Virus record (IMG/VR): IMGVR_UViG_3300021093_003305
Location: 1-39,772 of that record
DNA from: a virus
Direction: 5' to 3' (one strand)
Length of the DNA stretch: 39,772 nt
The stretch's first letter is position 1; each line of letters opens with the position of its first letter. Below the pieces are notes generated by a model. The model had not been told where the DNA came from. It did not search any database and was given only the letters and a program-made list of their open reading frames with translations. Of the stretch, positions 190 to 39,078 are shown one piece after another. The position numbers and the translations under genes were made by a program.

Positions 190-1965
190 ATGTTGTTATC
201 GAAAGAACAAATATTATTAGAGTATGCTAAGTGTGTAAATGATACTCCATACGCACTTAAAACATATTTGCAAACTTACGACAACACACAATCTAAATAC
301 GTCCCATTAGAATTATTTAACGACCAAGTTACTCTTGTAAAAGACTACGATTCTGCTGAAGAAAATATAGCACTAAAATATCGTCAGGCCGGTGTGTCAA
401 CCGTTACATCGGCTTGGGCTTCTAAAAGATTGGTTTTTGCTAAAAAATCAAAACCTGAAAAAATTCTAATTATTGCAAACAAACTTGACACCGCTGTTGA
501 AATGGCAAATAAAGTTAGAGCTTTTGTCGAACAGTGGCCTTCTTGGTTAGGAGTTGGATTTTCAGTTGAAAAAAATGCGGCAAGACATTTCAAATTAAGT
601 AATGGTTGTGAAGTAAAGGCTGTTGCAACATCAAAAGATGCTTTACGTGGATATACCCCAACAATTCTTATTTTTGATGAGGCTGCTTATATTGATGCCG
701 ACGAAGATTTTTGGTCTGCTTGTATGGCGTCTCTATCTACAGGTGGTAAAGTTATTGTAATTTCTACTCCAAACGGGTTTGACCGAATTTACTATTCAAT
801 TTATGCTCAGGCCGTAAAAGGAATGAATGACTTCAAAATCACTGAAATGTTTTGGTTTCGTGACCCAAGATATTCTAAAGATTTAAAGTTAATTAAATGT
901 GATGATATAATTCATTATATGTTAAACAGAAGTGACTATAAAGATAATGAAATTACACTAGATTACTCAAAAATAAAAGTGTCCGATAGGAATTTCGAGG
1001 AAATAAAAGAAAAATTAGAACAAGGTTATAAAGCTTATTCTTCTTGGTTCGAATCGATGTCAAAAAAATTAAAGTTCGACAAACGTAAAATATCACAAGA
1101 GTTGGAGTGTAATTTTTTAGGTTCAGGAGATAACGTAATACCTCGTGAAACAATGAAAAAAATAAAAGAAAACTTTATTAAAGAACCAGAAAACAAATTT
1201 CTGGGTGGTGCATTGTGGCAGTGGAAAGAACCGATTGCTGGCCACAAATACATAATGGGAATGGATGTTTCGAGAGGTGATAGTGAAGACTTTACAACAT
1301 TTATTATTATTGATTTTGACGAGAGAGAGCAAGTTTTAGAGTATATTGCAAAAGTTCCACCTGATATTGTTGCAGAAATAAGCTATAAATGGGCAACAAT
1401 ATATAATGCATTCATTGTTACAGACATTACAGGTGGAATGGGTGTTGCAACGTCACGAAAGTTACAAGAGTTGGGATATAAAAATTTATATATAGATGGA
1501 ATAAACCCAGCAGATAAATGGAAATGGGACCCAAAACAAAATGAAAAAATACCAGGAATTAATTTTAACTCAAAAAGGGTTCTTATTGTTCAGGCGTTTG
1601 AGGAGGCTTTGAGATTTGGGTTTGCCGTAAGGTCTCAGAGGTTATTTAATGAACTTAACACTTTTGTTTATGTTAATGGTAGACCTGACCACCAAAAAGG
1701 GCAACACGATGACTTGATTATGGCGATGGCTATGGCAATTTATGTTGGTGAGTCATCTTTTGCTCAACTCGAAAAGGCCACAGAACAGGCAAAAGCAATG
1801 ATTGACTCTTGGACGACTGATAAAAATATGTTTAGAGAGTCTTCACAAAATTTTAATCCTTCAATACCAGCACAAACTGATATGTATAATAGTAGAGCAT
1901 ATTCAGGACCAACAAAAAGTGATTACGAAAATTATTCTTGGTTGTTTGGTAACAGAAGAGTTTAA
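190..1965 (+). CDS. Terminase large subunit, T4 gp17-like
   Basis: The 591-residue product is the ATPase-nuclease motor that packages DNA through the portal into the prohead. The ATPase domain has a deviant Walker A segment KYRQAGVST (about 63-71), Walker B ILIFDEA (158-164) with the catalytic Glu at 164, and a coupling motif STPNG (192-196). The C-terminal RNase H-fold nuclease shows MDVSRGD (358-364), DITGG (412-416) and HDD (506-508), giving the expected acidic residues D359, D412 and D507/D508. Length matches T4 gp17 (about 610 residues). An ATG at 186 in another frame ends after a few codons, so the ATG at 190 is used. The leader has no Shine-Dalgarno. The portal gene follows after 33 bp. 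Confidence 0.95.
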   Translation: MLLSKEQILLEYAKCVNDTPYALKTYLQTYDNTQSKYVPLELFNDQVTLVKDYDSAEENIALKYRQAGVSTVTSAWASKRLVFAKKSKPEKILIIANKLDTAVEMANKVRAFVEQWPSWLGVGFSVEKNAARHFKLSNGCEVKAVATSKDALRGYTPTILIFDEAAYIDADEDFWSACMASLSTGGKVIVISTPNGFDRIYYSIYAQAVKGMNDFKITEMFWFRDPRYSKDLKLIKCDDIIHYMLNRSDYKDNEITLDYSKIKVSDRNFEEIKEKLEQGYKAYSSWFESMSKKLKFDKRKISQELECNFLGSGDNVIPRETMKKIKENFIKEPENKFLGGALWQWKEPIAGHKYIMGMDVSRGDSEDFTTFIIIDFDEREQVLEYIAKVPPDIVAEISYKWATIYNAFIVTDITGGMGVATSRKLQELGYKNLYIDGINPADKWKWDPKQNEKIPGINFNSKRVLIVQAFEEALRFGFAVRSQRLFNELNTFVYVNGRPDHQKGQHDDLIMAMAMAIYVGESSFAQLEKATEQAKAMIDSWTTDKNMFRESSQNFNPSIPAQTDMYNSRAYSGPTKSDYENYSWLFGNRRV

Positions 1966-1998: not shown

Positions 1999-4890
1999 AT
2001 GGCAGAAGAAAAATATACAGTTTGGCAAAGATTAGGTAAAGTTTTTGGTCCAAATTCAACGGTTGACCAGCAGTCACCTGTTTTTAAGTTTGATAAAAAA
2101 GAACTTTTAAAAACACCAAACAAACAAGATTACGAAAGAGAAAAATTACAAGCTCAGCAGACCATGTATATTGGTCAACAATGGCAAAAAGTTGAAAGTA
2201 ATCTATATCAACAGGCAGTATATTATGAACCAACAAGAATGGCGTCATATTATGATTACGAATCGATGGAATATTGTTTAGCCGGTGACACTAAAATTGC
2301 AACTCCAAACGGGTTTATAACAATTAAAGAGTTAGCGGAAAAAGGTAGAGATTATGAATTTATTACTTATGCTTACGATTACAATCTTAAAAAAGTGGTT
2401 CCCGCAATTGCAAGAAATGCACACTACACTAGAGATGAAATGACTTATAAGATTACTTTTGACGATGAAAGTTTTATTATTGCAACTTGGGAGCACCAAT
2501 TTATGAAAAGAGATGGTTCATTTGAAAGAGTTATGAACTTAAAACCTGGAGATTCAATGATGCCATTTTATCGTAAATCATTCTTCAATAATCAAAAATA
2601 TAATTGGGTTTATACCTGTAATTCAGATGAAGGACACAATGGATGGATTTCCGAACATAATTTAATCGCTGAATGGTTTTATGATAAAAAAATAAATAAA
2701 GACGAAGAAGTTCATCATATAGATTTTAATGGTAAAAATAACTTACCTGAAAATTTACAAGTAATGAAAGTGTCAGAACACAGAGCATATCATGCAAAAA
2801 TAAATAACGAAAAATTGTGGTCTAACCCTGATTACAGAAAAAAAATGTCAGAAGTTGCAAAAAGGAAAGGAAAATTAGTTTGGGGTGGAAGACGTAGTGG
2901 TGACAAAAATCCGACATATATAAAAATTGGTTGGGATAATATTATTGAAACGGCAAGAAAAATTAAAACTTTAAAAGGAACGTCTAAAGAATTAAATATA
3001 TCTTATCGAAAATTACAAAGAGAAATTGTATCGAATGGATATAATGATTGGAATACTTTTTTAATGGCTTATGGAATTAAAAAATCTCCATATTCAACCG
3101 CAAGAGCAAAAAATAGTGTAATTAATCTAAACCACAAAATATTATCAATTGAACCTTACGGTGTTGTTCCTGTTTATGATTTAACGGTTCCAGGATATAA
3201 AAATTTTGCAACAGATTCTATTTTTTCACATAATACGCCAGAAATTTCTGCAGCATTAGACATTTATGCTGAAGAATCAACAACTCCCGATAAAGATGGA
3301 CATATTCTTAAAATTTATTCAGAATCAAAAAGAATTAAATCGGTATTAACAGATTTATTTAACAATAAGTTGGATATTAACACCAATCTACCAATGTGGG
3401 TTAGAAATACTTGTAAGTTTGGTGATAATTTTGTTTATTTAAAATTGGACCCAGAAAGAGGTGTTGTTGGTTGTCAGCAATTACCAAACATTCAAATTGA
3501 GCGTTTAGAAAAGGGTATGAAATTTCAACCTGAAAAGTATTCAGCAGAGATTGAAAATGATGCGTTAAAATTCACATGGAAAGAAAAAAACATGGAATTT
3601 AATACATGGGAAATTGCTCATTTTAGAATTTTAGGAGATGATAGAAAACTTCCATACGGAACTTCAATGTTAGAAAAAGCTCGTCGTATTTGGAAACAAC
3701 TTTTATTATCTGAAGATGCGATGTTAATATATCGCGTTTCAAGAGCACCTGAAAGAAGGGTTTTTAAAGTATTTGTTGGTAACATGGACGATAAAGATGT
3801 TGATGGTTACGTTCAAAGGGTTGCAAACAAATTTAAAAGAGACCAAATTGTTGACCAAAAAACAGGAAATGTCGATATGAGATACAATCAAATGGCAGTA
3901 GACCAAGATTACTTTATCCCTGTAAGAGATACCACCACCACAAATCCAATAGAGACTTTACCAGGTGGTACAAACTTAGCGGAAATTGCAGATATTGAAT
4001 ATATCCAAAAGAAATTAGTTACGGCTCTTCGTATTCCTAAGGCTTATCTTGGATTTGAGGAGGCTGTAGGTGATGGTAAGAATTTGTCACTTCTTGATAT
4101 TAGATTTGCAAGAACAATTAATAGAATTCAAAAATCTATGATTGCAGAAATGAATAAAATTGCCATCATTCATTTATTTTTATTAGGGTTTGAAGATGAA
4201 TTAACAAACTTTACTATTGGCCTTACAAATCCATCAAAACAATCAGACCTTCTTGGAATTGAATTGTGGAAAGAAAAAATTACACTATTCAAAGATGCCG
4301 TTGCACCAATTCAAGATAGTGTTGCACCAGTATCAGCATCTTGGGCCAAAAAACACATTTTAGGATTTTCTGATGATGAAATTAGACTTGATTTACAACA
4401 ACAAAGAATTGAAAGGGCAGTATCAGCCGAGTTAGGTAAAACCGCTGAAGTAATCACAAAAACAGGATTGTTTGATACACTTGATTCCCTATATGGTAAA
4501 AAAGATGAAGCGGCCGCAGGAGGGGGAGCTGCTCCTGAGGGAGGAGGGGCACCTGAAGAAGAAGGAGGAGGGGCACCGCCACCACCACCTGATGCGGGAG
4601 GGGCACCGCCGCCACCACCTGATGCTGGAGGGGGAGTTACCCCTGAGGGAGGAGGGGCACCTGAAGAAGAAGGAGGAGGGGCACCGCCACCACCACCTGA
4701 TGCGGGAGGGGCACCGCCGCCACCACCTGATGCTGGAGGGGGAGTTACCCCTGAAAGTTTTAACAAAAATGATTTGAATTTAATTTTAGAAAATACACTT
4801 TTTGATAAAGATAACACATTAGACTTATCAAAAGGTAGAGTGTCTTTGAATGAAATAGATGATAAAATAAAAAACTTATTAAATAAGTAA
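1999..4890 (+). CDS. Portal protein, T4 gp20-like, interrupted by an intein
   Basis: The 963-residue precursor would yield a mature portal of about 643 residues after removal of a 320-residue intein (residues 93-412). The joined exteins read YESMEY then TPEISAALDIYAEES, the conserved T4-type portal signature. The portal body follows, with RAPERRVFKVFVGN and the segment PGGTNLAEIADIEYIQKKL typical of gp20. The portal dodecamer sits at the special vertex, nucleates prohead assembly and docks the terminase. The C-terminus carries an unusual Gly/Pro/Glu-rich tail (about 838-918) made of two identical 36-residue repeats, then a charged 44-residue end. The leader is A-rich without a Shine-Dalgarno. 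The next gene starts 23 bp downstream behind a TATTTATT box. Confidence 0.94.
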   Translation: MAEEKYTVWQRLGKVFGPNSTVDQQSPVFKFDKKELLKTPNKQDYEREKLQAQQTMYIGQQWQKVESNLYQQAVYYEPTRMASYYDYESMEYCLAGDTKIATPNGFITIKELAEKGRDYEFITYAYDYNLKKVVPAIARNAHYTRDEMTYKITFDDESFIIATWEHQFMKRDGSFERVMNLKPGDSMMPFYRKSFFNNQKYNWVYTCNSDEGHNGWISEHNLIAEWFYDKKINKDEEVHHIDFNGKNNLPENLQVMKVSEHRAYHAKINNEKLWSNPDYRKKMSEVAKRKGKLVWGGRRSGDKNPTYIKIGWDNIIETARKIKTLKGTSKELNISYRKLQREIVSNGYNDWNTFLMAYGIKKSPYSTARAKNSVINLNHKILSIEPYGVVPVYDLTVPGYKNFATDSIFSHNTPEISAALDIYAEESTTPDKDGHILKIYSESKRIKSVLTDLFNNKLDINTNLPMWVRNTCKFGDNFVYLKLDPERGVVGCQQLPNIQIERLEKGMKFQPEKYSAEIENDALKFTWKEKNMEFNTWEIAHFRILGDDRKLPYGTSMLEKARRIWKQLLLSEDAMLIYRVSRAPERRVFKVFVGNMDDKDVDGYVQRVANKFKRDQIVDQKTGNVDMRYNQMAVDQDYFIPVRDTTTTNPIETLPGGTNLAEIADIEYIQKKLVTALRIPKAYLGFEEAVGDGKNLSLLDIRFARTINRIQKSMIAEMNKIAIIHLFLLGFEDELTNFTIGLTNPSKQSDLLGIELWKEKITLFKDAVAPIQDSVAPVSASWAKKHILGFSDDEIRLDLQQQRIERAVSAELGKTAEVITKTGLFDTLDSLYGKKDEAAAGGGAAPEGGGAPEEEGGGAPPPPPDAGGAPPPPPDAGGGVTPEGGGAPEEEGGGAPPPPPDAGGAPPPPPDAGGGVTPESFNKNDLNLILENTLFDKDNTLDLSKGRVSLNEIDDKIKNLLNK
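2275..3234 (+). mobile_element. Intein with HNH homing endonuclease inside the portal gene
   Basis: This in-frame insertion of 320 codons begins with Cys (C93, CLAGDTKIATPNG) and ends FSHN (H411, N412) before Thr413. These are the hallmarks of a class 1 intein: nucleophilic Cys1, block B TWEH (T163-H166), a C-terminal block VPVYDLTVPGYKNFATD, penultimate His, terminal Asn and a hydroxyl-bearing +1 residue. An HNH nuclease sits in the middle (HHIDFNGKNNLPENL at 239-253, then EH at 260-261). It is followed by a NUMOD3-like stretch (NPDYRKKMSEVAKRKG) and a probable helix-turn-helix (about 315-360). All key splicing residues are present, so splicing activity is expected; homing activity is inferred. 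Confidence 0.93.
4534..4749 (+). repeat. Two perfect 108-bp tandem repeats, GC-rich, in portal tail
   Basis: Two copies of a 108-bp unit (4534-4641 and 4642-4749) appear identical base for base, and a third copy begins and then diverges after a few bases. Each encodes 36 residues (PEGGGAPEEEGGGA followed by two PPPPPDAGG-like segments). Each unit has an internal duplication around GGAGGGGCACCGCC. The GC content is far above the surrounding AT-rich DNA. Exact identity suggests recent duplication, or copy-number change by slippage. A repeat-collapse assembly error affecting copy number is possible. Confidence 0.93.
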
Positions 4891-4913: not shown

Positions 4914-5651
4914 ATGGCGGCTTTTGGTGAAATAAAAACTAAAATTGAAGAGACTTTTATCAACTTATATGGTAAAAAAGAGTTCAAATATTTTTCTAAT
5001 CAATTCAGAACTATAGTATTAGAAAATAAAGATATTGCAGAATTGTATTATATATATGACGATTTAAATAAAAATAAAGGGATGTCTGTGGATTTAGTAA
5101 ACGACTATGTAAATGAATCTATAGAATATTCACAAATTTTAATTGAAAATAATTCAAAAGTCCTAAGTAAAGTTGGTTCTTGGATTGATGCGATTGATTT
5201 ACATAATAACCCAAACAATAAATACGAAACAATTGATACGGTTATATATAACAAATCTATCAAAAATTTAGAATCTATTTTAGAATCAAAAAAACAAATT
5301 TCTAAAATCCTTACTTCGGCTAAAAAAGAAAAAATAGTTTCTAAATCAATTAATTTACCTTTAGAAACTATGATTAAAGTTGCAAATTTAAAATTGAACG
5401 ATGAAATTTCTACTTTATCTGAAAGTGAAAGAAATGAAATAACAGAAATTGTTTCTATTCCTAAAGATGAATTAGAATTAAGAATGGAAAGATTAAAAGA
5501 GTCTATAGTTGGTAGTTTGAAAATAAAATTGAATGAATCAAACGAAAAAGATTTCAAAGACACAATAGAAAAAACCGTAGATAAAATACAAAACTCACCT
5601 ATAGATTTTTATAACTATTACAAGTTGAAACAACTTCAAGAAGGATTATGA
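4914..5651 (+). CDS. Hypothetical head-module protein
   Basis: The 245-residue, lysine- and glutamate-rich product has no recognisable catalytic motif, signal peptide or membrane segment. It looks mostly helical, with charged stretches such as SESERNEITEIVSIPKDELELRM that could form coiled coil. It lies between portal and protease, where T4 has the small prohead-core genes 67 and 68, so a role as core or head-assembly factor is possible by position only. The ATG lies 22 nt after a TATTTATT box. The TGA overlaps the next gene's ATG (ATGA at 5648-5651), which implies translational coupling to the membrane protein. Confidence 0.75.
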   Translation: MAAFGEIKTKIEETFINLYGKKEFKYFSNQFRTIVLENKDIAELYYIYDDLNKNKGMSVDLVNDYVNESIEYSQILIENNSKVLSKVGSWIDAIDLHNNPNNKYETIDTVIYNKSIKNLESILESKKQISKILTSAKKEKIVSKSINLPLETMIKVANLKLNDEISTLSESERNEITEIVSIPKDELELRMERLKESIVGSLKIKLNESNEKDFKDTIEKTVDKIQNSPIDFYNYYKLKQLQEGL

Positions 5652-5899
5652 TAAAATTTTTTAAAAATATGATGGAAGGAGCTAATGGTGAAATTTCATC
5701 CAAAAGATTTATAGGTCTTTTGTGTAGTATTTCTTTGATTGTTGCTTTATTTGTATCGCTATTTAGCTGCGGAAAATATGTAGCACCTGTAATACTTATA
5801 CAAACTATTGGGTTGTTATCATTTGGAACATTAGGACTTACATCCGTTGATTTTTTTACTCACAAAAAAAAGACAGAAGAAAATCAAGACAAGAATTGA
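5648..5899 (+). CDS. Small two-helix membrane protein, holin-like candidate
   Basis: The 83-residue product has a short amphipathic N-terminus, a conserved-looking SSKRFIGLL motif (17-25) and a hydrophobic helix (about 23-42). A short turn containing SCGKYV follows, then a second hydrophobic helix (about 46-69) and a charged tail HKKKTEENQDKN. This architecture is common in small phage membrane proteins of Bacteroidota phages that are often labelled holins. No lysis gene is adjacent, so the holin label is tentative. The gene overlaps its upstream neighbour by 4 nt, and its last 16 nt overlap the 3' end of the opposite-strand bS21 gene. Confidence 0.7.
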   Translation: MIKFFKNMMEGANGEISSKRFIGLLCSISLIVALFVSLFSCGKYVAPVILIQTIGLLSFGTLGLTSVDFFTHKKKTEENQDKN

Positions 5900-6075
5900 T
5901 TTTGTTTTTTTTGAATAAAAATTGCTTTTTTTTGTTGTTTTCTATTTTTAATAGATTTTTTTTCAAACTCTTGTCTATCTCTTAAAAATTCTAATTGTTT
6001 TGTTTTATAAATTTTAAATTTATATTGTTTTAAGGCCTGTTCAATATTTCCTTTCTTCACTTCAATAATAATCAT
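5884..6075 (-). CDS. rpsU: Phage-encoded ribosomal protein bS21
   Basis: The 63-residue product matches the bS21 pattern along its whole length: start MIIIEVKKGNIEQALKQYK, then LRDRQEFEKKSIKNR, then KKAIFIQKK. The normal family length is about 60-70 residues, and the LRDRQ.F.K.S and QKA.(Y/F)IQK signatures are of Bacteroidota type. bS21 sits on the 30S platform next to the anti-Shine-Dalgarno end of 16S rRNA. The protein could therefore join host ribosomes and alter mRNA choice; that is inference. The gene is alone on the minus strand inside the plus-strand head module, preceded by a TATTTATA box at 6096-6103, and overlaps the membrane-protein gene tail-to-tail by 16 nt. Confidence 0.9.
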   Translation of the reverse strand: MIIIEVKKGNIEQALKQYKFKIYKTKQLEFLRDRQEFEKKSIKNRKQQKKAIFIQKKQNQFLS

Positions 6076-6095
6076 AAATTTTTTCCTTTTAGTTA

Positions 6096-6103
6096 TATAA
6101 ATA
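6096..6103 (-). promoter_or_regulatory. Candidate late-promoter box TATTTATA for bS21
   Basis: Read on the minus strand, TATTTATA begins 28 nt before the bS21 ATG. The same box precedes capsid and tail genes, which suggests bS21 is expressed with the late class. Confidence 0.45.
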
Positions 6104-6120: not shown

Positions 6121-6152
6121 TTTGACAAATTTAATTCTAATTATTATATTTT
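6121..6152 (+). promoter_or_regulatory. Candidate Bacteroidota-type -33/-7 promoter
   Basis: TTTG at 6121-6124 is followed after 20 nt by TATATTTT at 6145-6152. This resembles the Bacteroidota primary sigma consensus (TTG, about 19 nt, TAnnTTTG). It lies 29 nt before the ATG at 6181 in the divergent gap between bS21 and the next gene. The -7 box lacks the final G, so the call is weak. Confidence 0.35.
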
Positions 6153-6180
6153 ATAAAAATAAACATCTTACATATGAAAA

Positions 6181-6630
6181 ATGAAGAAAGGAAAAACATC
6201 AAAATTAAACATTTTTGATGATGCAAAATGTCAATATGGAACAGTTGATTCTAAAAATTTAAAATCAATTTATCTAATTTTTCAAACATGGGTTAAACCA
6301 AATGAAGACTACACAAATTGGGTTTCCATCACAGGAAGCATAAAAAGACAAATTTTACACACCTTATTAGAAGTTGTTGACCACAAAATTTTCGAAAAAA
6401 AATATATTGTAGATTTGGATTTAAGAACAAGTGGACTTCAAAAAAACAAAAAAAGTTTTTTAAATTTAGAAATAACACTTTTTATTCACAACGATATTTA
6501 CGATTTTAAATCAATTATTTTAAGGTCAAAAATTAAAAATATTTTATCTTCGATCTATAAAGATGATTTAAAAAATTCAATTTATTTTACATTAAGTAAA
6601 ACAAAATTGGCAGAAACACAAGAAATATAA
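6181..6630 (+). CDS. Hypothetical protein, 149 residues
   Basis: The product is basic (K-rich) and soluble, with alternating beta-like segments (YLIFQTWVKP, FLNLEITLFIHNDIYDF) and a lysine-rich N-terminus MKKGKTSKLNIFDD. No family is recognised. The ATG at 6181 was chosen because an ATG at 6174 in another frame closes after 14 codons. The leader is A-rich. It lies between bS21 (divergent) and the prohead protease (21 bp downstream). It may be an early or middle gene inserted in the head module, since its upstream region looks like a host-type promoter rather than a late box. Confidence 0.7.
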   Translation: MKKGKTSKLNIFDDAKCQYGTVDSKNLKSIYLIFQTWVKPNEDYTNWVSITGSIKRQILHTLLEVVDHKIFEKKYIVDLDLRTSGLQKNKKSFLNLEITLFIHNDIYDFKSIILRSKIKNILSSIYKDDLKNSIYFTLSKTKLAETQEI

Positions 6631-6651: not shown

Positions 6652-7362
6652 ATGAGAATTTTAGGACCTAACGACACAGGTAAAGGAATTCTTGTTGAGT
6701 GGGATGCAGGAATCATCAATCCCAACGAGCCAAGAAACCAAAGTATTATTAGAGAATCATATGGTCAACTCGACCATTCAAAACCTTTCGTGTTTTACGC
6801 AACACTTCAAAAACACGGCGTTCCAAATAGAAATGGTAGAATTTATCCAGAAAAAATATTAAAAAGGGAGGCTGAAAAATACCAAGACGTAATCAAACGA
6901 GGAATGTCTATTTCAGAATTGAATCACCCTGAGTCATCTTTAGTTGATTTGGATAGGGTATCACATTTAATTACTGAAACTTGGTGGGAAGGAAATATTT
7001 TAATGGGTAAGATAAAATTATTAACAAGTCCAGGTTTTCACGAAAGAGGAATAGTTACATCAAAGGGTGATGTAGCTGCAAACCTCATGAGACAAGGTGT
7101 CACAATGGGCGTATCGTCTCGTGGAGTCGGGTCTTTAGTAAAAAAAGGAGACGAAAATGAAGTTCAAGAGGATTTTGAGTTAATTTGTTTTGACTTAGTT
7201 TCTTCACCATCTACACCTGGTGCATATCTTTACTTAAACAAAGAAGATAGACCAAATTACGAAGAAAAATTATCTGAATCTGAAAATATTAATTCAAATA
7301 TGGGAGGATTAGATAAATCTGTTGACTTAATGAAAAGATTATCTAATTATTTAGGTAAATAA
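6652..7362 (+). CDS. Prohead maturation protease, T4 gp21-like
   Basis: The 236-residue serine protease degrades the scaffold and trims capsid proteins during prohead maturation. The T4-type protease signature is clear: ISELNHP with the catalytic His at about 92, GVSSRGVGSL (153-162) with the nucleophilic Ser at 155/156, and an acidic position in CFDLVSSPSTPGAYL (about D181). N-terminal motifs FYATLQKHGVPNRNGRIYP (48-66) are typical of the family. T4 gp21 cleaves after (L/I)-x-E; matching sites are visible in the capsid protein and in two nearby proteins. It is placed between portal and scaffold as in T4. Length is close to T4 gp21. Confidence 0.94.
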   Translation: MRILGPNDTGKGILVEWDAGIINPNEPRNQSIIRESYGQLDHSKPFVFYATLQKHGVPNRNGRIYPEKILKREAEKYQDVIKRGMSISELNHPESSLVDLDRVSHLITETWWEGNILMGKIKLLTSPGFHERGIVTSKGDVAANLMRQGVTMGVSSRGVGSLVKKGDENEVQEDFELICFDLVSSPSTPGAYLYLNKEDRPNYEEKLSESENINSNMGGLDKSVDLMKRLSNYLGK

Positions 7363-7715: not shown

Positions 7716-9128
7716 ATGAGTAATAGAAAATCAGAGTCGTTAGTAGAAGAGGCTTTTTTACAAATGAAGTCTATCGAAGATGCGATTAGTGAAAATGCAA
7801 AAGGAATACTTGCTTCTACAATGAAGGAAGAAATCGGCGAATTAGTAAGGGAATCAATTTTAGGTTCCAAAAGGTCTTTGAAAGAACAAGCACAAGGTGG
7901 TGAACAACCACAAGAACCAGAACAAGAAGGCGAAGAAGAAGTGTCTGCTGAAGAAGAAGTTGTAACACAACAACCTAAAGCAGGTGCCGATAACGGTGAA
8001 GGTGAAATGCCACCAGCAGAACAAGAATTACCACCACTTGATATGACATCAGCACCAATGCCAGAACTTATGAAAGTTTTTGCGGCAATGGGTGACGAAG
8101 ATGGATTTATTATCAAAAAAGATGGTGACTTTATTCATTTGAAAGATGGTAAAGCTAATACAGAATATCTGATTAGTATTGCGGCAGAAGAACCAACACC
8201 ACAACCAACTGAACAACCAGTTGAACAACAAACTGAACCAATGGCAGAAAATACAATATACGAATTGGTTTTTGAAGATGATTCAATGATGGGAGGTATG
8301 TCAGAACTTGACTATAACGAAGGTATGGGTCATATGGACGAAGATGTGTACGAAGGTATGGGTCATATGGACGAAGATGTGTACGAAGGTATGGGTCATA
8401 TGGACGAAGATGTGTACGAAGGTATGGGTCATATGGACGAAGATGTGTACGAAATGGATGACCAAGTTTATGAAATCGACCAAGAATCATACGAGAATGT
8501 TGTTGAGGCTTTTAAAGCAAAAGGTAAAATTGGTAAATTAAAATCTAACATTTACCCTAAAAAATTAAAATATGGAGTCACTGAAACAGGTAAGGATGAA
8601 ATCTCAGACGGTTGGATGGGTGAAGAAAAGGATGATGATGCAGAAACTGCTGAAGCCGCTAGAACTTATGGAAATGGTTCGAAAAAAGGTAGAGGGTTAA
8701 GAAAGGCGATTACTCCAAACAGAAATTTAACTTACGAGTCTTATGAATTTGAAACTCTGAAAGAAAAAAATGAAGAGTATAGAAAAGCTTTAGACTTTTT
8801 TAGAAATAAATTAAATGAAGTTGCGATTTTTAATTCAAACTTAGCATACGCCACACGTTTGTTTACCGAACACTCAACAACAAAACAAGAAAAAATCAAT
8901 ATTCTTAGAAGATTCGACAATGTAGACTCTTTGAAAGAATCAAAATCACTTTATAAATCAATCAAAGAAGAATTAGGTGACACACCAAGTTCAGTGATGA
9001 CTGAATCAATTACTAAAAAAGTTATTAAAACCCCAAGTAATGGTTCAGCGACTAATTTGATTGAATCTAAAGCTTATGAAAATCCTCAATTTATGAGAAT
9101 GAAGGATTTAATGAATAAAATAAAATAA
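7716..9128 (+). CDS. Prohead scaffold/core protein, T4 gp22-like (positional)
   Basis: The 470-residue, very acidic product lies between protease and major capsid protein, the T4 position of the gp22 scaffold. It has a helical N-terminus (about 1-60), a low-complexity Q/E/P-rich linker (about 62-115) and a short folded segment (about 120-155) containing DGFIIKKDGDFIHL. An acidic repeat block follows (EGMGHMDEDVY, four times, 202-245), then a charged helical C-terminal half with FETLKEKNEEYRKALDFFRNKL and a terminal FMRMKDLMNKIK. High charge, helices and low complexity fit a scaffold that gp21 degrades. The identity rests mainly on position. The major capsid gene starts 35 bp downstream. Confidence 0.8.
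   Translation: MSNRKSESLVEEAFLQMKSIEDAISENAKGILASTMKEEIGELVRESILGSKRSLKEQAQGGEQPQEPEQEGEEEVSAEEEVVTQQPKAGADNGEGEMPPAEQELPPLDMTSAPMPELMKVFAAMGDEDGFIIKKDGDFIHLKDGKANTEYLISIAAEEPTPQPTEQPVEQQTEPMAENTIYELVFEDDSMMGGMSELDYNEGMGHMDEDVYEGMGHMDEDVYEGMGHMDEDVYEGMGHMDEDVYEMDDQVYEIDQESYENVVEAFKAKGKIGKLKSNIYPKKLKYGVTETGKDEISDGWMGEEKDDDAETAEAARTYGNGSKKGRGLRKAITPNRNLTYESYEFETLKEKNEEYRKALDFFRNKLNEVAIFNSNLAYATRLFTEHSTTKQEKINILRRFDNVDSLKESKSLYKSIKEELGDTPSSVMTESITKKVIKTPSNGSATNLIESKAYENPQFMRMKDLMNKIK
8319..8450 (+). repeat. Four perfect 33-bp tandem repeats in the scaffold gene
   Basis: Copies at 8319-8351, 8352-8384, 8385-8417 and 8418-8450 appear identical, and each encodes EGMGHMDEDVY. Repetition preserves frame (11 codons). 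There are no spacers, so it is not a CRISPR array. Copy number may vary between related phages through slippage. Confidence 0.95.
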
Positions 9129-9163: not shown

Positions 9164-10990
9164 ATGGGAGCATTATTAGAATCAGGTCTTGTTGGTAATA
9201 TTGGTCTTAAGCACCTTAAAGTTATCAAAGAAGATACAATTAACAAATGGGATAGATTAGGATTCCTAGACGGTCTTAGAGGACACGTTAAAGAGAACAT
9301 GGCACAGTTATATGAAAACCAAGCGTCTCACCTAATCAATGAAGCAGCATCAACAGATAGTTCAGGTTCTTTCGAAACTGTAGTATTTCCTATAGTAAGA
9401 AGAGTATTCTCTAAATTATTAGCTAATGACTTAGTTTCTGTACAGGCTATGAACTTACCAATTGGTAAATTGTTCTACTTTGTACCTAAAATCCAATCTT
9501 ATACAGGTAATGAGCATTACGCACCAATTGGTTCACCAAATAATACAGGTCAAAACGCAAATGCTGGTTATAATGATGGAAGTAAAAATCTTTATGATAG
9601 ATTTTATGAAGGAACTGAACCAGGATTAGACCCTGCAGGTCTTTTTGACTATTCAAAAGGTAGATATTCTGGTATAACTAAGAGCGCAACTACAGTTGCA
9701 TGGTCTAATGGTAACTTAGTACCAGCCGCTTACACCTTAACTGGTGGTACAGTTGCTGCTACGGGAGCCAATGGTGGTCCTGTTTTTAGAAAAGCCTTAA
9801 TCGTTATGTCAGGTTTTTCTTCAGCAGGCGCTGGAAAATTAATCGGTCCCGATGGACAAGAAATGGACAATGAGTCATTCCTTTCTGATTTAAGAGTAAA
9901 CGCAGTTTCTACTGGAGCATTCTCAGGTATGGGTACTGGTGATTTACTATTCAGAGTTGTTACTCAAAAATACGGTAAAGGGATTGTAGAATATGGTTCA
10001 CAACAATCAACAACGTTTTACAGTGGTACATACCCAGGAAACGGTGGCGCATACGATGATATATGCGACTCTACTGGTGATATTTACCTAGAAGTTGACC
10101 TTCAACAACCTTGTTCAATTGGAGCGGCATCACTTGACGGCTATTCAGGTTTAACATTAGGTGTTGCAGGTGATGCATCTGCTGGTACTCAGTTCACGTG
10201 TACTTTTAGAGTATACGAAGAATTGGAATTTGAAGATAAAATTGGTGAGGTTTCTTTTGATTTAGAATCAGTAACTGTTTCTGTAACTGAAAGAAAATTA
10301 AGAGCACAATGGTCACCTGAATTGGCACAAGACGTTTCAGCATTCCATAACATCGACGCTGAAGCTGAACTTACGGCTTTATTGTCTGAGCAAGTGGCGG
10401 CTGAAATTGATAGAGAAATCTTGAGAGACCTTAGAAAAGGTGCGGCTTGGAACCTAAGATGGGATTACAACGGATGGAAAAGAGGTACTTCTGCAAATCC
10501 ATTAACTCAATACACACAAAAAGATTGGAATCAGACTTTGATTACAGCAATCAACCAAATTTCAGCACAAATCCACAAGTCTACATTAAGAGGTGGAGCT
10601 AACTGGATTGTTGTTTCTTCTGAGATTTCTGCAATCTTTGATGACCTTGAGTACTTCCACGTATCAAACGCTTCTCCTGAGCAAGACCAATACAATATGG
10701 GTATTGAAAGAGTTGGTACATTAGCAGGAAGATACCAAGTGTATAGAGATCCTTACTTCCCACCAAATACAGTATTGTTGGGTCACAAAGGTTCTTCATT
10801 GTTAGACACAGGGTACGTTTACGCACCGTATGTTCCTCTACAATTGACACCTACAATGTACAACCCATTCAACTTCACACCAATCAAAGGTATTATGACC
10901 AGATATGCGAAGAAGATGGTGAACAACAGGTTCTATGGTAGAATTACTGTAGACGGGGTTAGAACATTCGATTTAAGAGAATTGAGATAA
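9164..10990 (+). CDS. Major capsid protein, T4 gp23-like
   Basis: The 608-residue product is the head shell subunit. The N-terminal region resembles T4 gp23: HLINEAAST (56-64) contains an I-N-E cleavage motif, so the protease would remove residues 1-60. VVFPIVRRVFSKLLANDLVSVQAMNLPIGKLFY follows, in conserved spacing. The C-terminal half has the gp23-type segments KLRAQWSPELAQD, DIDAEAELTALLSEQVAAEIDREIL-like sequence (HNIDAEAELTALL), ANWIVVSSEI and YAPYVPLQLTPTM. It exceeds T4 gp23 (521 residues), and the extra length lies in a Gly/Thr/Ser-rich insertion (about 130-340). It has better GC content than most of the window, consistent with high expression. A terminator follows 23 nt downstream. 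Confidence 0.96.
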   Translation: MGALLESGLVGNIGLKHLKVIKEDTINKWDRLGFLDGLRGHVKENMAQLYENQASHLINEAASTDSSGSFETVVFPIVRRVFSKLLANDLVSVQAMNLPIGKLFYFVPKIQSYTGNEHYAPIGSPNNTGQNANAGYNDGSKNLYDRFYEGTEPGLDPAGLFDYSKGRYSGITKSATTVAWSNGNLVPAAYTLTGGTVAATGANGGPVFRKALIVMSGFSSAGAGKLIGPDGQEMDNESFLSDLRVNAVSTGAFSGMGTGDLLFRVVTQKYGKGIVEYGSQQSTTFYSGTYPGNGGAYDDICDSTGDIYLEVDLQQPCSIGAASLDGYSGLTLGVAGDASAGTQFTCTFRVYEELEFEDKIGEVSFDLESVTVSVTERKLRAQWSPELAQDVSAFHNIDAEAELTALLSEQVAAEIDREILRDLRKGAAWNLRWDYNGWKRGTSANPLTQYTQKDWNQTLITAINQISAQIHKSTLRGGANWIVVSSEISAIFDDLEYFHVSNASPEQDQYNMGIERVGTLAGRYQVYRDPYFPPNTVLLGHKGSSLLDTGYVYAPYVPLQLTPTMYNPFNFTPIKGIMTRYAKKMVNNRFYGRITVDGVRTFDLRELR

Positions 10991-23643: not shown

Positions 23644-24578
23644 AAGTTTGTAAAGTTTGAATTGTTTTTATTTATTATTAATTGGTAAGTCTCGATTAAT
23701 TGTTTAATACCGTAATCTAAATTATGTTTTGGTTTCCATCCTAAAGATTCTAATTTTTGATTAGAAACTATGTAATTACGTTTATCAAAATCTTCTTTAA
23801 AATTATCTTCTTTAATAACTAAACTAGGTATATATTCTTTTATTTTTTGGGCTAATTCCATTTTAGAAAGATTTGCACTTGAGAGTCCCACATTAAATGC
23901 TTGACCCTTACATTTTTCATAATTTTCTATTATAAAAATAAAAGTATTTGCGATATCCTGAACATGTATATAATTTCGTTTAAAACTTGATTCAAATAAA
24001 ACAAGATACCCGTCAACCAAACTTTTATATGTGAAATCGTTCACTAAAAGATCGGTTCTCATTCTTGGAGACACCCCAAAAACCGTTGCTAATCTTAACG
24101 AAACACCGTTACCATTTAATAACATTGCATCTTCCGCATCACATTTAGTTTTTGCGTATAAGGATAATGGTTTAAATGGAGATTCCTCGGTTATTATACT
24201 TTCAGATGAACCGTATTGTGAGTTTGTGTTAGGTAGTATTAACTTTTGGTTTCCGTTTAAAACTTCTAATATATTTAATATTTGTTTATAATTAACCTCA
24301 ACTGTTAATTCAGGATTTGCTTTACATGCCGGCATACCAACAATAGCGGCTAGTGGTATAATTATATCATTTTTAGATACTAAACTTTGTAGTAAATTTT
24401 TATCTCTAACGTCACCTAAAACAAATTTAAAGTTATCTTTTTTAAAAAGATGTAGTAAAGATAATTGTTTATACATTAGATTATCTAATACTGTTACTTC
24501 ATAATTTAAATTTAAAAGATATTCAGTTAAAGTTGATCCCAAATAACCTGCTCCTCCTGTTATTAACACTTTTTTCAT
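23640..24578 (-). CDS. NAD-dependent nucleotide-sugar epimerase/dehydratase
   Basis: The 312-residue extended SDR has the Rossmann fingerprint GGAGYLG (8-14), the active-site pair YAKTK (Y141, K145) and an upstream serine/asparagine-rich strand NTNSQYGSS (118-126). C-terminal substrate-binding features include RNYIHVQDIANTFIF and FNVGLSSANLSKMELA. The protein would act on a sugar nucleotide; the exact substrate cannot be told. Start overlaps the neighbouring epimerase gene (ATGA, 4 nt). Confidence 0.85.
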   Translation of the reverse strand: MKKVLITGGAGYLGSTLTEYLLNLNYEVTVLDNLMYKQLSLLHLFKKDNFKFVLGDVRDKNLLQSLVSKNDIIIPLAAIVGMPACKANPELTVEVNYKQILNILEVLNGNQKLILPNTNSQYGSSESIITEESPFKPLSLYAKTKCDAEDAMLLNGNGVSLRLATVFGVSPRMRTDLLVNDFTYKSLVDGYLVLFESSFKRNYIHVQDIANTFIFIIENYEKCKGQAFNVGLSSANLSKMELAQKIKEYIPSLVIKEDNFKEDFDKRNYIVSNQKLESLGWKPKHNLDYGIKQLIETYQLIINKNNSNFTNL

Positions 24579-25552
24579 ACTCTAAATTTTATGTCATTAT
24601 ACACTATTTGTAAACCCTCTTTAAGTGAGGTTTTTGATGTCCAACCTAAATCATGTTCAATTTTAGAAACATCACACCACTGACCCCATATAATTGTTTT
24701 TTTAGTATTATCCCATTCTATATTAATGTCTTTACCACTTATATCAATAATAGTTTTTGCTATCTCTTCAATAGTCACTTTAGACGAACTACCAACATTA
24801 TATGGTCCTACAATTTTATTTTTTTCCATGGATGACACAATTTTATTAATACATTCGATAGCGTCATCAATAAAACAATAAGATCTGGTTTCTTTACCTG
24901 TACCCCAAACATTAAATGGTAAATCGGGGTACTTTATTGCTCTGTGAGAAAAAACAGGTATAACTGAACCGGTTTCTAAATTATAATCTTGATTAGGACC
25001 ATATATCCCAATAAATCTTGCAATTCCAGCACTTAACCAAGGATTTTCAATTATTGCTGATTCTATTATTTTTTCACCAATTAATTTACCCCAACCGTAA
25101 GTTAACTCAGGATCTGAAGGGTAGGCGTCTTCTTCTTTTATTAATGGTGAGTTTATTGTATTTTGTAAATTTTTTGGGTAAACGTGTGCAGAAGATGCGT
25201 AAAAATATTTTGTTATTTTGTTTTTTAAAACGCATTTTAGAACGTTTAAATCCATTTTTATGTTTGTACTAATTACATCATATGGATTATTAATGTATGT
25301 ACCAATACCTCCGACTTTAGATGCTAAATGATAGACTACGTCTATATTTTTAAAATGATTTTTTATTTTTTTATATTTTGTTAAATCACAATTAATAAAA
25401 TTAATTTTATCTAAATAATCTTTAATAAATTTTTTTTTACCCCTTTCTAAATTATCTATAACAGTTACGTTATGTCCCTCACTAACTAATTTTTTTATTA
25501 AATGCGAACCTATAAATCCAGCCCCACCGGTAACTAACACATTTTTTATCAT
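24575..25552 (-). CDS. NAD-dependent epimerase, GDP-mannose 3,5-epimerase-like
   Basis: The 325-residue extended SDR has GGAGFIGSH (9-17), ASSAHVYP (119-126), the EDAYPSDPELTYGWGK signature (141-156, active-site Y152 and K156) and GTGKETRSYCFIDDAI. The ASSA.VYP and E.DAYP..P..(A/T)YG..K strings are typical of GDP-mannose 3,5-epimerase and close GDP-sugar relatives. The C-terminal YNVGSSSKVTIEEIAK motif is usual. It may supply a GDP-hexose for the fucose branch nearby, but the substrate is inferred. 4-nt overlaps on both sides (ATGA) show translational coupling. Confidence 0.85.
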   Translation of the reverse strand: MIKNVLVTGGAGFIGSHLIKKLVSEGHNVTVIDNLERGKKKFIKDYLDKINFINCDLTKYKKIKNHFKNIDVVYHLASKVGGIGTYINNPYDVISTNIKMDLNVLKCVLKNKITKYFYASSAHVYPKNLQNTINSPLIKEEDAYPSDPELTYGWGKLIGEKIIESAIIENPWLSAGIARFIGIYGPNQDYNLETGSVIPVFSHRAIKYPDLPFNVWGTGKETRSYCFIDDAIECINKIVSSMEKNKIVGPYNVGSSSKVTIEEIAKTIIDISGKDINIEWDNTKKTIIWGQWCDVSKIEHDLGWTSKTSLKEGLQIVYNDIKFRV

Positions 25553-36871: not shown

Positions 36872-37624
36872 TTACTGATTATAAAGTTTAACGTAATTTT
36901 GAAAACTTGTTTGATTTACAAAATCATTGCACTTTCCTCCTGTTGATATGTTATTTGGTGCAAAAAAGTTGACTTCTAATAGTCTGTCTTTTTTTAATGA
37001 TTCTGCAATAGAAAAACTTAAAGATTGGTTTCCTATAAAAAACTTACAGGAGTTTATAAATGTCGCCAACTCTAAACAATCGTTAGCTACTATTCTTTGT
37101 GCGTTAGGTACCCATTTTTTAAAGTCGTTCCATTCATCGTCTAATCCACAAAAAACAATATTATTTAGAGTTCTTAAAAACGCGTAATTTATTGTTTCGT
37201 TTCTATATCTTTCAGATCTACAAACTAATATTTTATCAGATAACTCCTCAATTTTATTTTCTATCGTTATCCATGGTTTTGTCAAATCTATAAAATTATG
37301 TATAAAGTAAAAATATCTTTTAACTAAAGAACCCATTGCCGGATTAACTGGTTGTGTCCTAAACTGGTCTAAATCAACGTCTATTTTTTGTCCACTAAAA
37401 ACATCTACATTTTTTATGTATTCCTGATTAATTAAAAGTGGGTACATAAAATCAAACATTTTTTTATTTAGATACACATCACCTAATGGATTTTTAGCCC
37501 CTGGATAAAGATTTGCCTTAACATTAAGATTTAAATATAAATTAGAATCTTCGTTAAAACTTTTTATTCCTGCTAAGGAAAAAATCAAATCGCCCGATTG
37601 TCCCGAATGTTTAAAGTTTCTCAT
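36872..37624 (-). CDS. Glycosyltransferase-like, GT9/heptosyltransferase-type fold
   Basis: The 250-residue product begins with HSGQSGDLIFSLAGIKSF (6-23), the entry loop found in GT9-type heptosyltransferases and related proteins (xGxxGDxxxxLxxI). The C-terminal half has ERYRNETINYAFL and FFIGNQSLSFSIAESLKKDR, resembling the donor loop G..S...H.A of that fold, but with the usual His missing (FSIAE). A heptose donor would match the HldE-type kinase nearby; this is a suggestion only. The stop overlaps nothing, and 3 nt separate it from the next gene. Confidence 0.65.
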   Translation of the reverse strand: MRNFKHSGQSGDLIFSLAGIKSFNEDSNLYLNLNVKANLYPGAKNPLGDVYLNKKMFDFMYPLLINQEYIKNVDVFSGQKIDVDLDQFRTQPVNPAMGSLVKRYFYFIHNFIDLTKPWITIENKIEELSDKILVCRSERYRNETINYAFLRTLNNIVFCGLDDEWNDFKKWVPNAQRIVANDCLELATFINSCKFFIGNQSLSFSIAESLKKDRLLEVNFFAPNNISTGGKCNDFVNQTSFQNYVKLYNQ

Positions 37625-39078
37625 ACGTTAACTATTAAATTTTGTAATTTTTGTTCTGACATTACTTTTTGTAAAAGTTTATTTAAATCTTGATTAAATA
37701 ATTCATTATTATTAAAAGTGTTTTGAGTGGCTAATGAATTAGTGTCACAAAAACATTTTTGATTTCTTATTATACTTTTAAGTGTAAAATCATTATAACA
37801 AATATTTGTTTCATATTGTATATCAAACCAATCGTTATCTATTAAATTTTTATATGTTGTTACAAAAACATCAGAAAGATTACCCATTTTATTTTCTCTA
37901 TATCCACTCATAACATTATAAACCGAACCGTTATCTTGAATTAATAAATTAAATTGGTTTTCTTGGTTTTTTAAGATATTAAATTTAGAACTAAAAATAC
38001 TATAATCGTCATTTAATGATGATGGAAATGCACAACCAAAAGTTGGTTTTTCTTTATGGTAAATTTCACAAATAGATGAAAAGATATTATTAACTAAATT
38101 TACATTTTTGTCTATGAAAAAGATTAAATCATAACTATTATTTATAAAATTATCTTCCCATTTTAAAATAGACAAATTCTTTGCTTGTTCATTGAAAACA
38201 CCATCATAAACTTTAATGTTTTCACATTCTAAAAGTTTTACTTCTTCTGAGTTATTTTCGTTAGATATTAGATTTATATCGTAATTAGGGATATTAAATG
38301 ATTTTATTTTTTCGATAGTATCTTTTACAAAATTAATGTCGTCACCACAAGATAAAACAATTTTTAATTTATATTTTTTCATAAATTTAAAATCTTTTAC
38401 CCTATAATCTAAATTTATTTTAGATTTAATAGGTAATAAATCCTTGTAGTCCCCCTCAAAAATTTTTCTATTTTTTTCCCACGTTTCATTTGTTTGTCCA
38501 ATAGAAAGATGAGTAACCCTTACATTATAAATTACCCCTATTCTTACGTCATTTAAAAAATTATTAACAGAAAAATAAACATCATAAAAGTGAAAACCGT
38601 CTACTGTTTCATCAAAACCCTTTTTAATTTTTGTTTTATCGATTGCAATAAATAAACCATCAACAAAGCAACATTCAGAAATTTCATCTCCCCAACTTTT
38701 CGAATATTTTGATTCCCATTTTTTACCTTCGTGTTTGTGGTTAACAATACCTAACATTTTTCTTTTATCTTCCCACCATATACCAGATTTTGGTATTTCA
38801 GTGGTACCGGCAACACCTAATATCCCAAATTCATTTTTATGAAAATGTTTTATTATTTTTTTACCCCATTCTTTAGTATCAAATTCTAAATCGTCATGAC
38901 ATAAAATAATGATATCATTTTTTGATTCATTTATTATTTCATTATAAACATTAGAAAGTGATTTTTTACCATCATTAACTTTTTGAATAACCTCAACATT
39001 CTTTAACCCACATGTTTTTTTAAGATAATCAATATAACCCTGATTATCATTTCTGGTTGAAAATCCTATTGTTATCAT
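37621..39078 (-). CDS. Large glycosyltransferase, GT2-type, two-part
   Basis: The 485-residue product starts MITIGFSTRNDNQGYIDYLK and carries a GT-A core with DIIILCHDDLEFD (55-67), VAGTTEIPKSGIWWED and CCFVDGLFIAIDKTK. This is the pattern of the PF13712-type glycosyltransferase family. From about residue 235 a second segment begins (KYKLKIVLSCGDDINFV) and contains DLIFFIDKNVN and FVTTYKNLIDNDWFD. This may be a second, degenerate GT-A domain. It would be the first glycan-modifying gene after dUTPase. Confidence 0.78.
   Translation of the reverse strand: MITIGFSTRNDNQGYIDYLKKTCGLKNVEVIQKVNDGKKSLSNVYNEIINESKNDIIILCHDDLEFDTKEWGKKIIKHFHKNEFGILGVAGTTEIPKSGIWWEDKRKMLGIVNHKHEGKKWESKYSKSWGDEISECCFVDGLFIAIDKTKIKKGFDETVDGFHFYDVYFSVNNFLNDVRIGVIYNVRVTHLSIGQTNETWEKNRKIFEGDYKDLLPIKSKINLDYRVKDFKFMKKYKLKIVLSCGDDINFVKDTIEKIKSFNIPNYDINLISNENNSEEVKLLECENIKVYDGVFNEQAKNLSILKWEDNFINNSYDLIFFIDKNVNLVNNIFSSICEIYHKEKPTFGCAFPSSLNDDYSIFSSKFNILKNQENQFNLLIQDNGSVYNVMSGYRENKMGNLSDVFVTTYKNLIDNDWFDIQYETNICYNDFTLKSIIRNQKCFCDTNSLATQNTFNNNELFNQDLNKLLQKVMSEQKLQNLIVNV

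Follow-up and report, generated by a model that had tools for sequence, protein, structure and literature searches.

A reverse-strand bS21 gene within the head module

The window, by which we mean the whole stretch of DNA analysed, is an entire virus record of 39,772 bases with a GC content of 29.3%. Its plus strand encodes, in order, a terminase, a portal protein, two proteins of no assigned function, a 149-residue protein, a head maturation protease, two further proteins and the major head protein (MCP); between the second no-function protein and the 149-residue protein lies, on the opposite strand, a gene for ribosomal protein bS21, the last 16 bases of which overlap the end of the convergent small gene (Table 1). 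An earlier note on this DNA had placed bS21 on the opposite strand of a head module, and the identities of the terminase, portal, protease and MCP neighbours bear this out.

Table 1 Features at and around the bS21 gene (window positions)
Feature	Position	Strand	Basis or remark
Terminase large subunit	190..1965	+	PHROG match
Portal protein with HNH-bearing insertion	1999..4890	+	Profile match
g4914, head-region gene, no assigned function; TATTTAT box in leader	4914..5651	+	Leader comparison
Convergent small gene, 83 aa, no assigned function	5648..5899	+	ORF; profile searches
Phage bS21 gene, 63 aa	5884..6075	−	ORF, ATG start; profile and chain matches; dN/dS
Weak SD-like AAAGGA in bS21 leader	6084..6089	−	−6.2 kcal/mol with flavobacterial 16S tail
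TATTTAT late-type box of bS21	6097..6103	−	Conserved in leaders
Palindromic TTTGACAAA / TTTGTCAAA element	6121..6129	.	Retained beside the divergent gene in bS21-less relatives
TATATTTT, candidate −7/−10 element of divergent gene	6145..6152	+	20 nt after TTG
AATAAAC	6158..6164	+	Conserved in divergent-gene leader
Divergent neighbour, 149 aa, no assigned function	6181..6630	+	Beside bS21 in nearly all close relatives
Prohead (head maturation) protease; TATTTAT box in leader	6652..7362	+	Profile match; leader comparison
g7716; TATTTAT box and AATAAAC in leader	7716..9128	+	Leader comparison
Major head protein (MCP)	9164..10990	+	Profile match

Phage bS21 genes had, as the note says, been reported before: Chen et al. 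2022 (PMC9723584) describe 47 genomes, from phages with predicted Bacteroidetes hosts, in which bS21 lies on the reverse strand among the TerL, portal, protease and MCP genes, generally within five genes of them. The window has the same layout, with bS21 on the reverse strand and flanked by hypothetical genes, portal and TerL as the third and fourth gene on one side, and protease and MCP as the second and fifth on the other; its GC content, taken over a 39.8-kb fragment, compares with 31.0–33.7% in the eight complete bS21 genomes of that study. The gene, its place and the idea of ribosome hijacking are already in print (PMC9723584).

Identity and conservation of the phage bS21

The product matches the Pfam family Ribosomal_S21 (E 4.1e-9; 36.5 bits, the cut-off being 27) and the PHROG "ribosomal protein S21" (E 2.9e-4), and it scores 28.9 bits (E 7.6e-7) with the NCBIfam S21p model (equivalog TIGR00030), the cut-off of which, 28.95, is 0.05 higher. 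The closest solved chains are 9i5v_9 (E 2.8e-10, query residues 1–58) and 7jil_z (E 1.8e-7, query residues 1–59), both Bacteroidota-type bS21 chains of solved ribosomes, 7JIL being that of Flavobacterium johnsoniae (PMC9723584). The assignment to a Bacteroidota-type bS21 made in the note is thereby upheld, whereas its claim of a full-length match holds nearly to the end against the two chains but not for Pfam, which covers residues 4–51 of 63.

A first scan of IMG/VR confirmed 107 related stretches, the best 80 of which were kept; a search of a phage collection returned five records, all of them spanning less than 80% of the query. Across six relatives of the same length, dN of 0.05–0.17 stands against dS of 0.27–1.69, giving dN/dS of about 0.08–0.26 and indicating that the gene is under purifying selection. 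Because of these ratios and of the 107 related stretches the bS21 match is more than chance, and the ORF is, as judged from sequence, a real phage-carried copy of the bacterial ribosomal protein.

The position equivalent to F. johnsoniae Y54, which contacts the anti-Shine–Dalgarno (ASD) sequence by stacking, is aromatic in all 89 distinct full-length proteins of the phage lineage (74 Tyr, 8 Phe and 7 His) and is Phe in the window, in line with Chen et al., who find the Tyr54 position aromatic in phage bS21 and mention one Phe54 case (PMC9723584). Positions 27 and 28 are K or R and Q, respectively, in 89 of 89 phage proteins; F. johnsoniae has G and T there, and GT together with GV make up the commonest pair in the sampled bacterial bS21. 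The window protein is about equally near to other Bacteroidia and to Flavobacteriaceae, and its nearest sampled bacterial homologues include class-wide genomes without a strong Shine–Dalgarno (SD) sequence before rpsU, the gene for bS21. Chen et al. report that 51 of 61 phage bS21 are most similar to those of Flavobacteriia, and one CRISPR spacer from Flavobacterium (PMC9723584).

The divergent neighbour and relatives lacking bS21

Viral relatives came from four scans, three of which retained the best 80 of 107, 110 and 235 stretches, with contigs recurring across scans; in a separate scan, loci were taken for the best-scoring 30 of 59 matches. In 151 sequences (the window, 80 loci of the first viral scan and 70 of the second, with contigs repeating between the two), bS21 and the 149-residue neighbour occur together 144 times. 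The three sequences with bS21 alone have it within 170 bases of a contig end. Four carry the neighbour alone: L173 has only 84 nt upstream of it, and L209, L210 and L215 have room for bS21 but no such gene. These three relatives, unlike the phages of Chen et al. 2022, keep the conserved neighbouring gene without bS21, which argues that bS21 is dispensable in some relatives. Separately, the gap upstream of the 149-residue gene in L209 and L210 holds a hairpin of a C-run and a G-run followed by T's, resembling a terminator.

The neighbour of the window matched no Pfam or PHROG family; 11 of 40 relatives match the unnamed phrog_8939 (best E 5.6e-4), and no PDB sequence matched it better than E 0.27. 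Its AlphaFold model (pLDDT 89.8) found no PDB fold at E 0.001 or better, the best VIA-align Z being 7.5, and one uncharacterised viral fold at E 2.3e-12. Weak rows pointing to neck or tail-terminator proteins were not taken as evidence. The gene may correspond to bS21_CN of Chen et al.

A conserved box in the bS21 leader

Leaders were made unique before counting, leaving out those that were too short or lacked an ATG start. Among sequences having the neighbour gene, TATTTAT is present in 98 of 99 unique bS21 leaders, a degree of conservation that confirms the late-type box proposed in the earlier note. The heptamer recurs in all unique leaders from three genes of the head region (g4914, 53/53; protease, 53/53; g7716, 42/42) and in 17 of 42 portal leaders, there partly from upstream coding sequence; it is rare before MCP (5/44) and the divergent gene (2/57), and was not found in the leaders of terminase (0/35), the 5648 gene (0/30) or the 7373 gene (0/52). 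Across the window it occurs 35 times against a Markov mean of 39 and is thus not over-represented, so that any significance must come from where it stands and how well it is kept. The three bS21-less relatives retain TTTTGACAA and AATAAAC ahead of the neighbour gene but have no box, which therefore goes with bS21. By conservation, then, the box of bS21 is real. AATAAAC itself is present in every unique leader of the divergent gene (57/57), g7716 (42/42) and MCP (44/44).

Where the host −7 element, TAHHTTTG, has a nearly invariant G (Baez et al. 2019), the phage box carries A, as might be expected if a factor specified by the phage recognises it. Chen et al. report that phage bS21 is expressed late, together with the neighbouring opposite-strand gene (PMC9723584); the word promoter is absent from the main text of that paper.

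In 84 of 98 bS21 leaders a TTG precedes the box by 22–23 nt, compared with 0/53 protease, 0/42 g7716 and 7/53 g4914 leaders at the same spacing. This spacing suggested a shared −33 promoter element, with one palindrome serving both directions, a possibility that we set aside. In the three relatives lacking bS21 the element stays with the divergent gene; on the bS21 side, 5 of the 59 unique leaders in the first set have a disrupted or displaced TTG; TTGTCAA, at spacings of 15 to 31, is missing from 15 of 98 leaders of the wider set (in two of the 15, L319 and L376, it stands at a spacing shorter than scanned or than usual); and the −33 motif is hardly evident in F. johnsoniae (Baez et al. 2019). 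The palindromic TTTGACAAA / TTTGTCAAA element is accordingly assigned, as a putative promoter-region feature, to the divergent gene.

Phage bS21 leaders lack the extended Shine–Dalgarno sequence of Flavobacteriaceae rpsU

In F. johnsoniae, rpsU has an extended SD and is autoregulated via ribosomes lacking bS21, and pairing below −13 kcal/mol is described as characteristic of rpsU across Bacteroidota (McNutt et al. 2023, PMC9976891). Leaders were paired with the 16S tail AACACCUCCUUUCU, taken from three named Flavobacteriia records, and duplex energies were computed with ViennaRNA, which differs from the program of McNutt et al., their −13 kcal/mol serving here as a guide. The Flavobacteriaceae-type rpsU set consists of the best 80 among 570 confirmed stretches closest to F. 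johnsoniae bS21, and is hence biased to that family; it gave 69 unique leaders. All 80 loci lie at or below −13 kcal/mol, and every one of the 69 unique leaders reaches −17 or lower.

Of 56 unique phage bS21 leaders none is at or below −13 kcal/mol, three are at or below −10 and 11 at or below −5, with a median of −2.5 against medians of −0.5 (host) and −0.1 (phage) in mock windows; the window leader, with its weak SD-like AAAGGA, reaches −6.2 and so falls short of an extended SD. A larger phage set, of sequences carrying the neighbour gene, agrees (0/92 at or below −13, 3/92 at or below −10), as do nine unique phage leaders without that gene, none of which reaches −10. The phage gene thus resembles F. 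johnsoniae rpsU (PMC9976891) in protein family and in its aromatic ASD-contact position, but differs from it in a leader that has the TATTTAT box instead of an extended SD. The contrast depends on the host, because only 5 of 30 class-wide Bacteroidia rpsU leaders are at or below −13 kcal/mol.

One clade (L070, L073 and L074) has, unlike the rest, a strong SD (AAAAGGAGG, −12.2 kcal/mol) before the phage bS21. A tree of the neighbour gene (92 rows, 149 columns, quick method, with 29 of 79 inner branches open and one very long branch) does not show loss of the SD as an event, since the leaders that bear an SD fall within a group that mostly has none.

The note had also described the surrounding head-gene leaders as lacking SD sequences. 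This is correct in that no leader of portal, g4914, protease, g7716 or MCP has an SD at or below −7 kcal/mol, but some other neighbours score weakly, reaching that value in 3/30 leaders (the 5648 gene) and 1/57 (the 6181 gene).

A literature search covering titles, abstract openings and passages returned no paper stating the SD contrast or the footprint of the box, which we regard as additions to the published account.

Possible roles of the phage bS21

According to McNutt et al. 2023, initiation by bS21-deficient ribosomes is accelerated on rpsU mRNA and slowed on other mRNAs, being poor on those without an SD, and host mRNAs are mostly SD-less (PMC9976891). Combined with the leader comparison, this leads us to prefer, tentatively and at somewhat less than even confidence, a late supply of phage bS21 that is immune to host feedback, holds the ASD of ribosomes occluded and reduces host rpsU translation. 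Late in infection, phage bS21 would supplant or supplement the cell's own bS21 on the 30S platform in a Bacteroidota host; the timing is extrapolated from the late expression that Chen et al. report for relatives, and entry into ribosomes from the pelagiphage HTVC008M, whose bS21 enters E. coli 70S ribosomes (Mizuno et al. 2019, PMC6375957). That phage likewise encodes a bS21 but differs in phage and host group, and is likened here by description rather than by sequence. Because its mRNA lacks an extended SD, phage bS21 should escape host feedback, so that bS21-replete ribosomes would go on translating it and the feedback would not switch it off. Host rpsU mRNA, bearing an SD, should by contrast be disfavoured by an ASD-occluding bS21, and its translation would fall. 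Phage bS21 would then take over, with ribosomes staying replete, the state that initiates best on SD-less mRNA.

A fuller version of this scheme is rather doubtful. In it the phage would exploit the host ribosome feedback, making its SD-less mRNA late whatever the bS21 level, firing it from a compact divergent promoter region shared with the conserved neighbour, and silencing host rpsU by ASD occlusion, and expression would suffice to shift the pool to the phage version, neither a protease nor an exchange factor being needed; McNutt et al. speculate that such phages encode a factor helping bS21 exchange (PMC9976891).

The earlier note proposed instead that phage bS21 biases ribosomes towards late phage mRNA, and its interpretation is partly supported overall. 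The bias itself was already hypothesised in print by Chen et al. 2022 (PMC9723584), who propose that phage bS21 selects or favours phage transcripts; the reason given in the note, SD-less leaders, is weak, because host mRNAs are mostly SD-less too and the lack of an SD alone cannot mark a phage mRNA. In the form in which an altered N-terminal helix makes ribosomes favour phage over host messages, selection draws on the K/R27 and Q28 signature, present in all 89 distinct phage proteins where F. johnsoniae has G and T, and on the argument of Chen et al. from divergence in the same N-terminal region (PMC9723584). The divergent helix may, however, reflect phage ancestry only, and with phage and host leaders alike SD-less no selectable feature is known, which leaves message selection rather unlikely. 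It is because SD-less leaders are not phage-specific, and because an SD-bearing rpsU should be disfavoured by occlusion, that we favour the late, feedback-immune supply.

The phage protein could also merely keep ribosomes replete as host expression fails late in infection, with neither an effect on rpsU nor any selection of messages. A conserved bS21 with a conserved ASD contact, a box common to bS21 and head-region genes, and the poor initiation of bS21-lacking ribosomes on SD-less mRNAs (PMC9976891) all sit well with such maintenance, which nonetheless leaves the phage-specific sequence signature unexplained and which we consider improbable. Still less probable is an extra-ribosomal function, or one in the virion or in countering a host defence; Chen et al. 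mention virion packaging and escape from translational arrest (PMC9723584), and the place among head genes and the pairing with a conserved neighbour of no assigned function in 144 of 151 sequences lend it some colour, but retention of the ASD-contact residue and of the bS21 profile match points to ribosome binding.

Were the late, feedback-immune supply correct, it would explain how a phage can alter the make-up of ribosomes through expression alone, and the role of phage bS21 would be testable in F. johnsoniae with published reporters. The comparison links phage bS21 to the SD-dependent autoregulation of rpsU (PMC9976891), the phage version having no extended SD.

Other features of the window

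A tRNA scan of the whole window found no tRNA. A PF09116 search was uninformative, giving no match in any record or in any control. A long minus-strand block contains sugar genes, for an NAD-dependent epimerase and a glycosyltransferase, at 24575–25552 (−) and 37621–39078 (−). In the portal ORF, HNH endonuclease matches at residues about 114–277 precede the portal match at 412–805, an insertion that resembles an intein bearing a homing endonuclease, and Pro/Gly-rich repeats lie in frame near the C terminus. The product of g7716 carries four in-frame copies of an acidic EGMGHMDEDVY unit.
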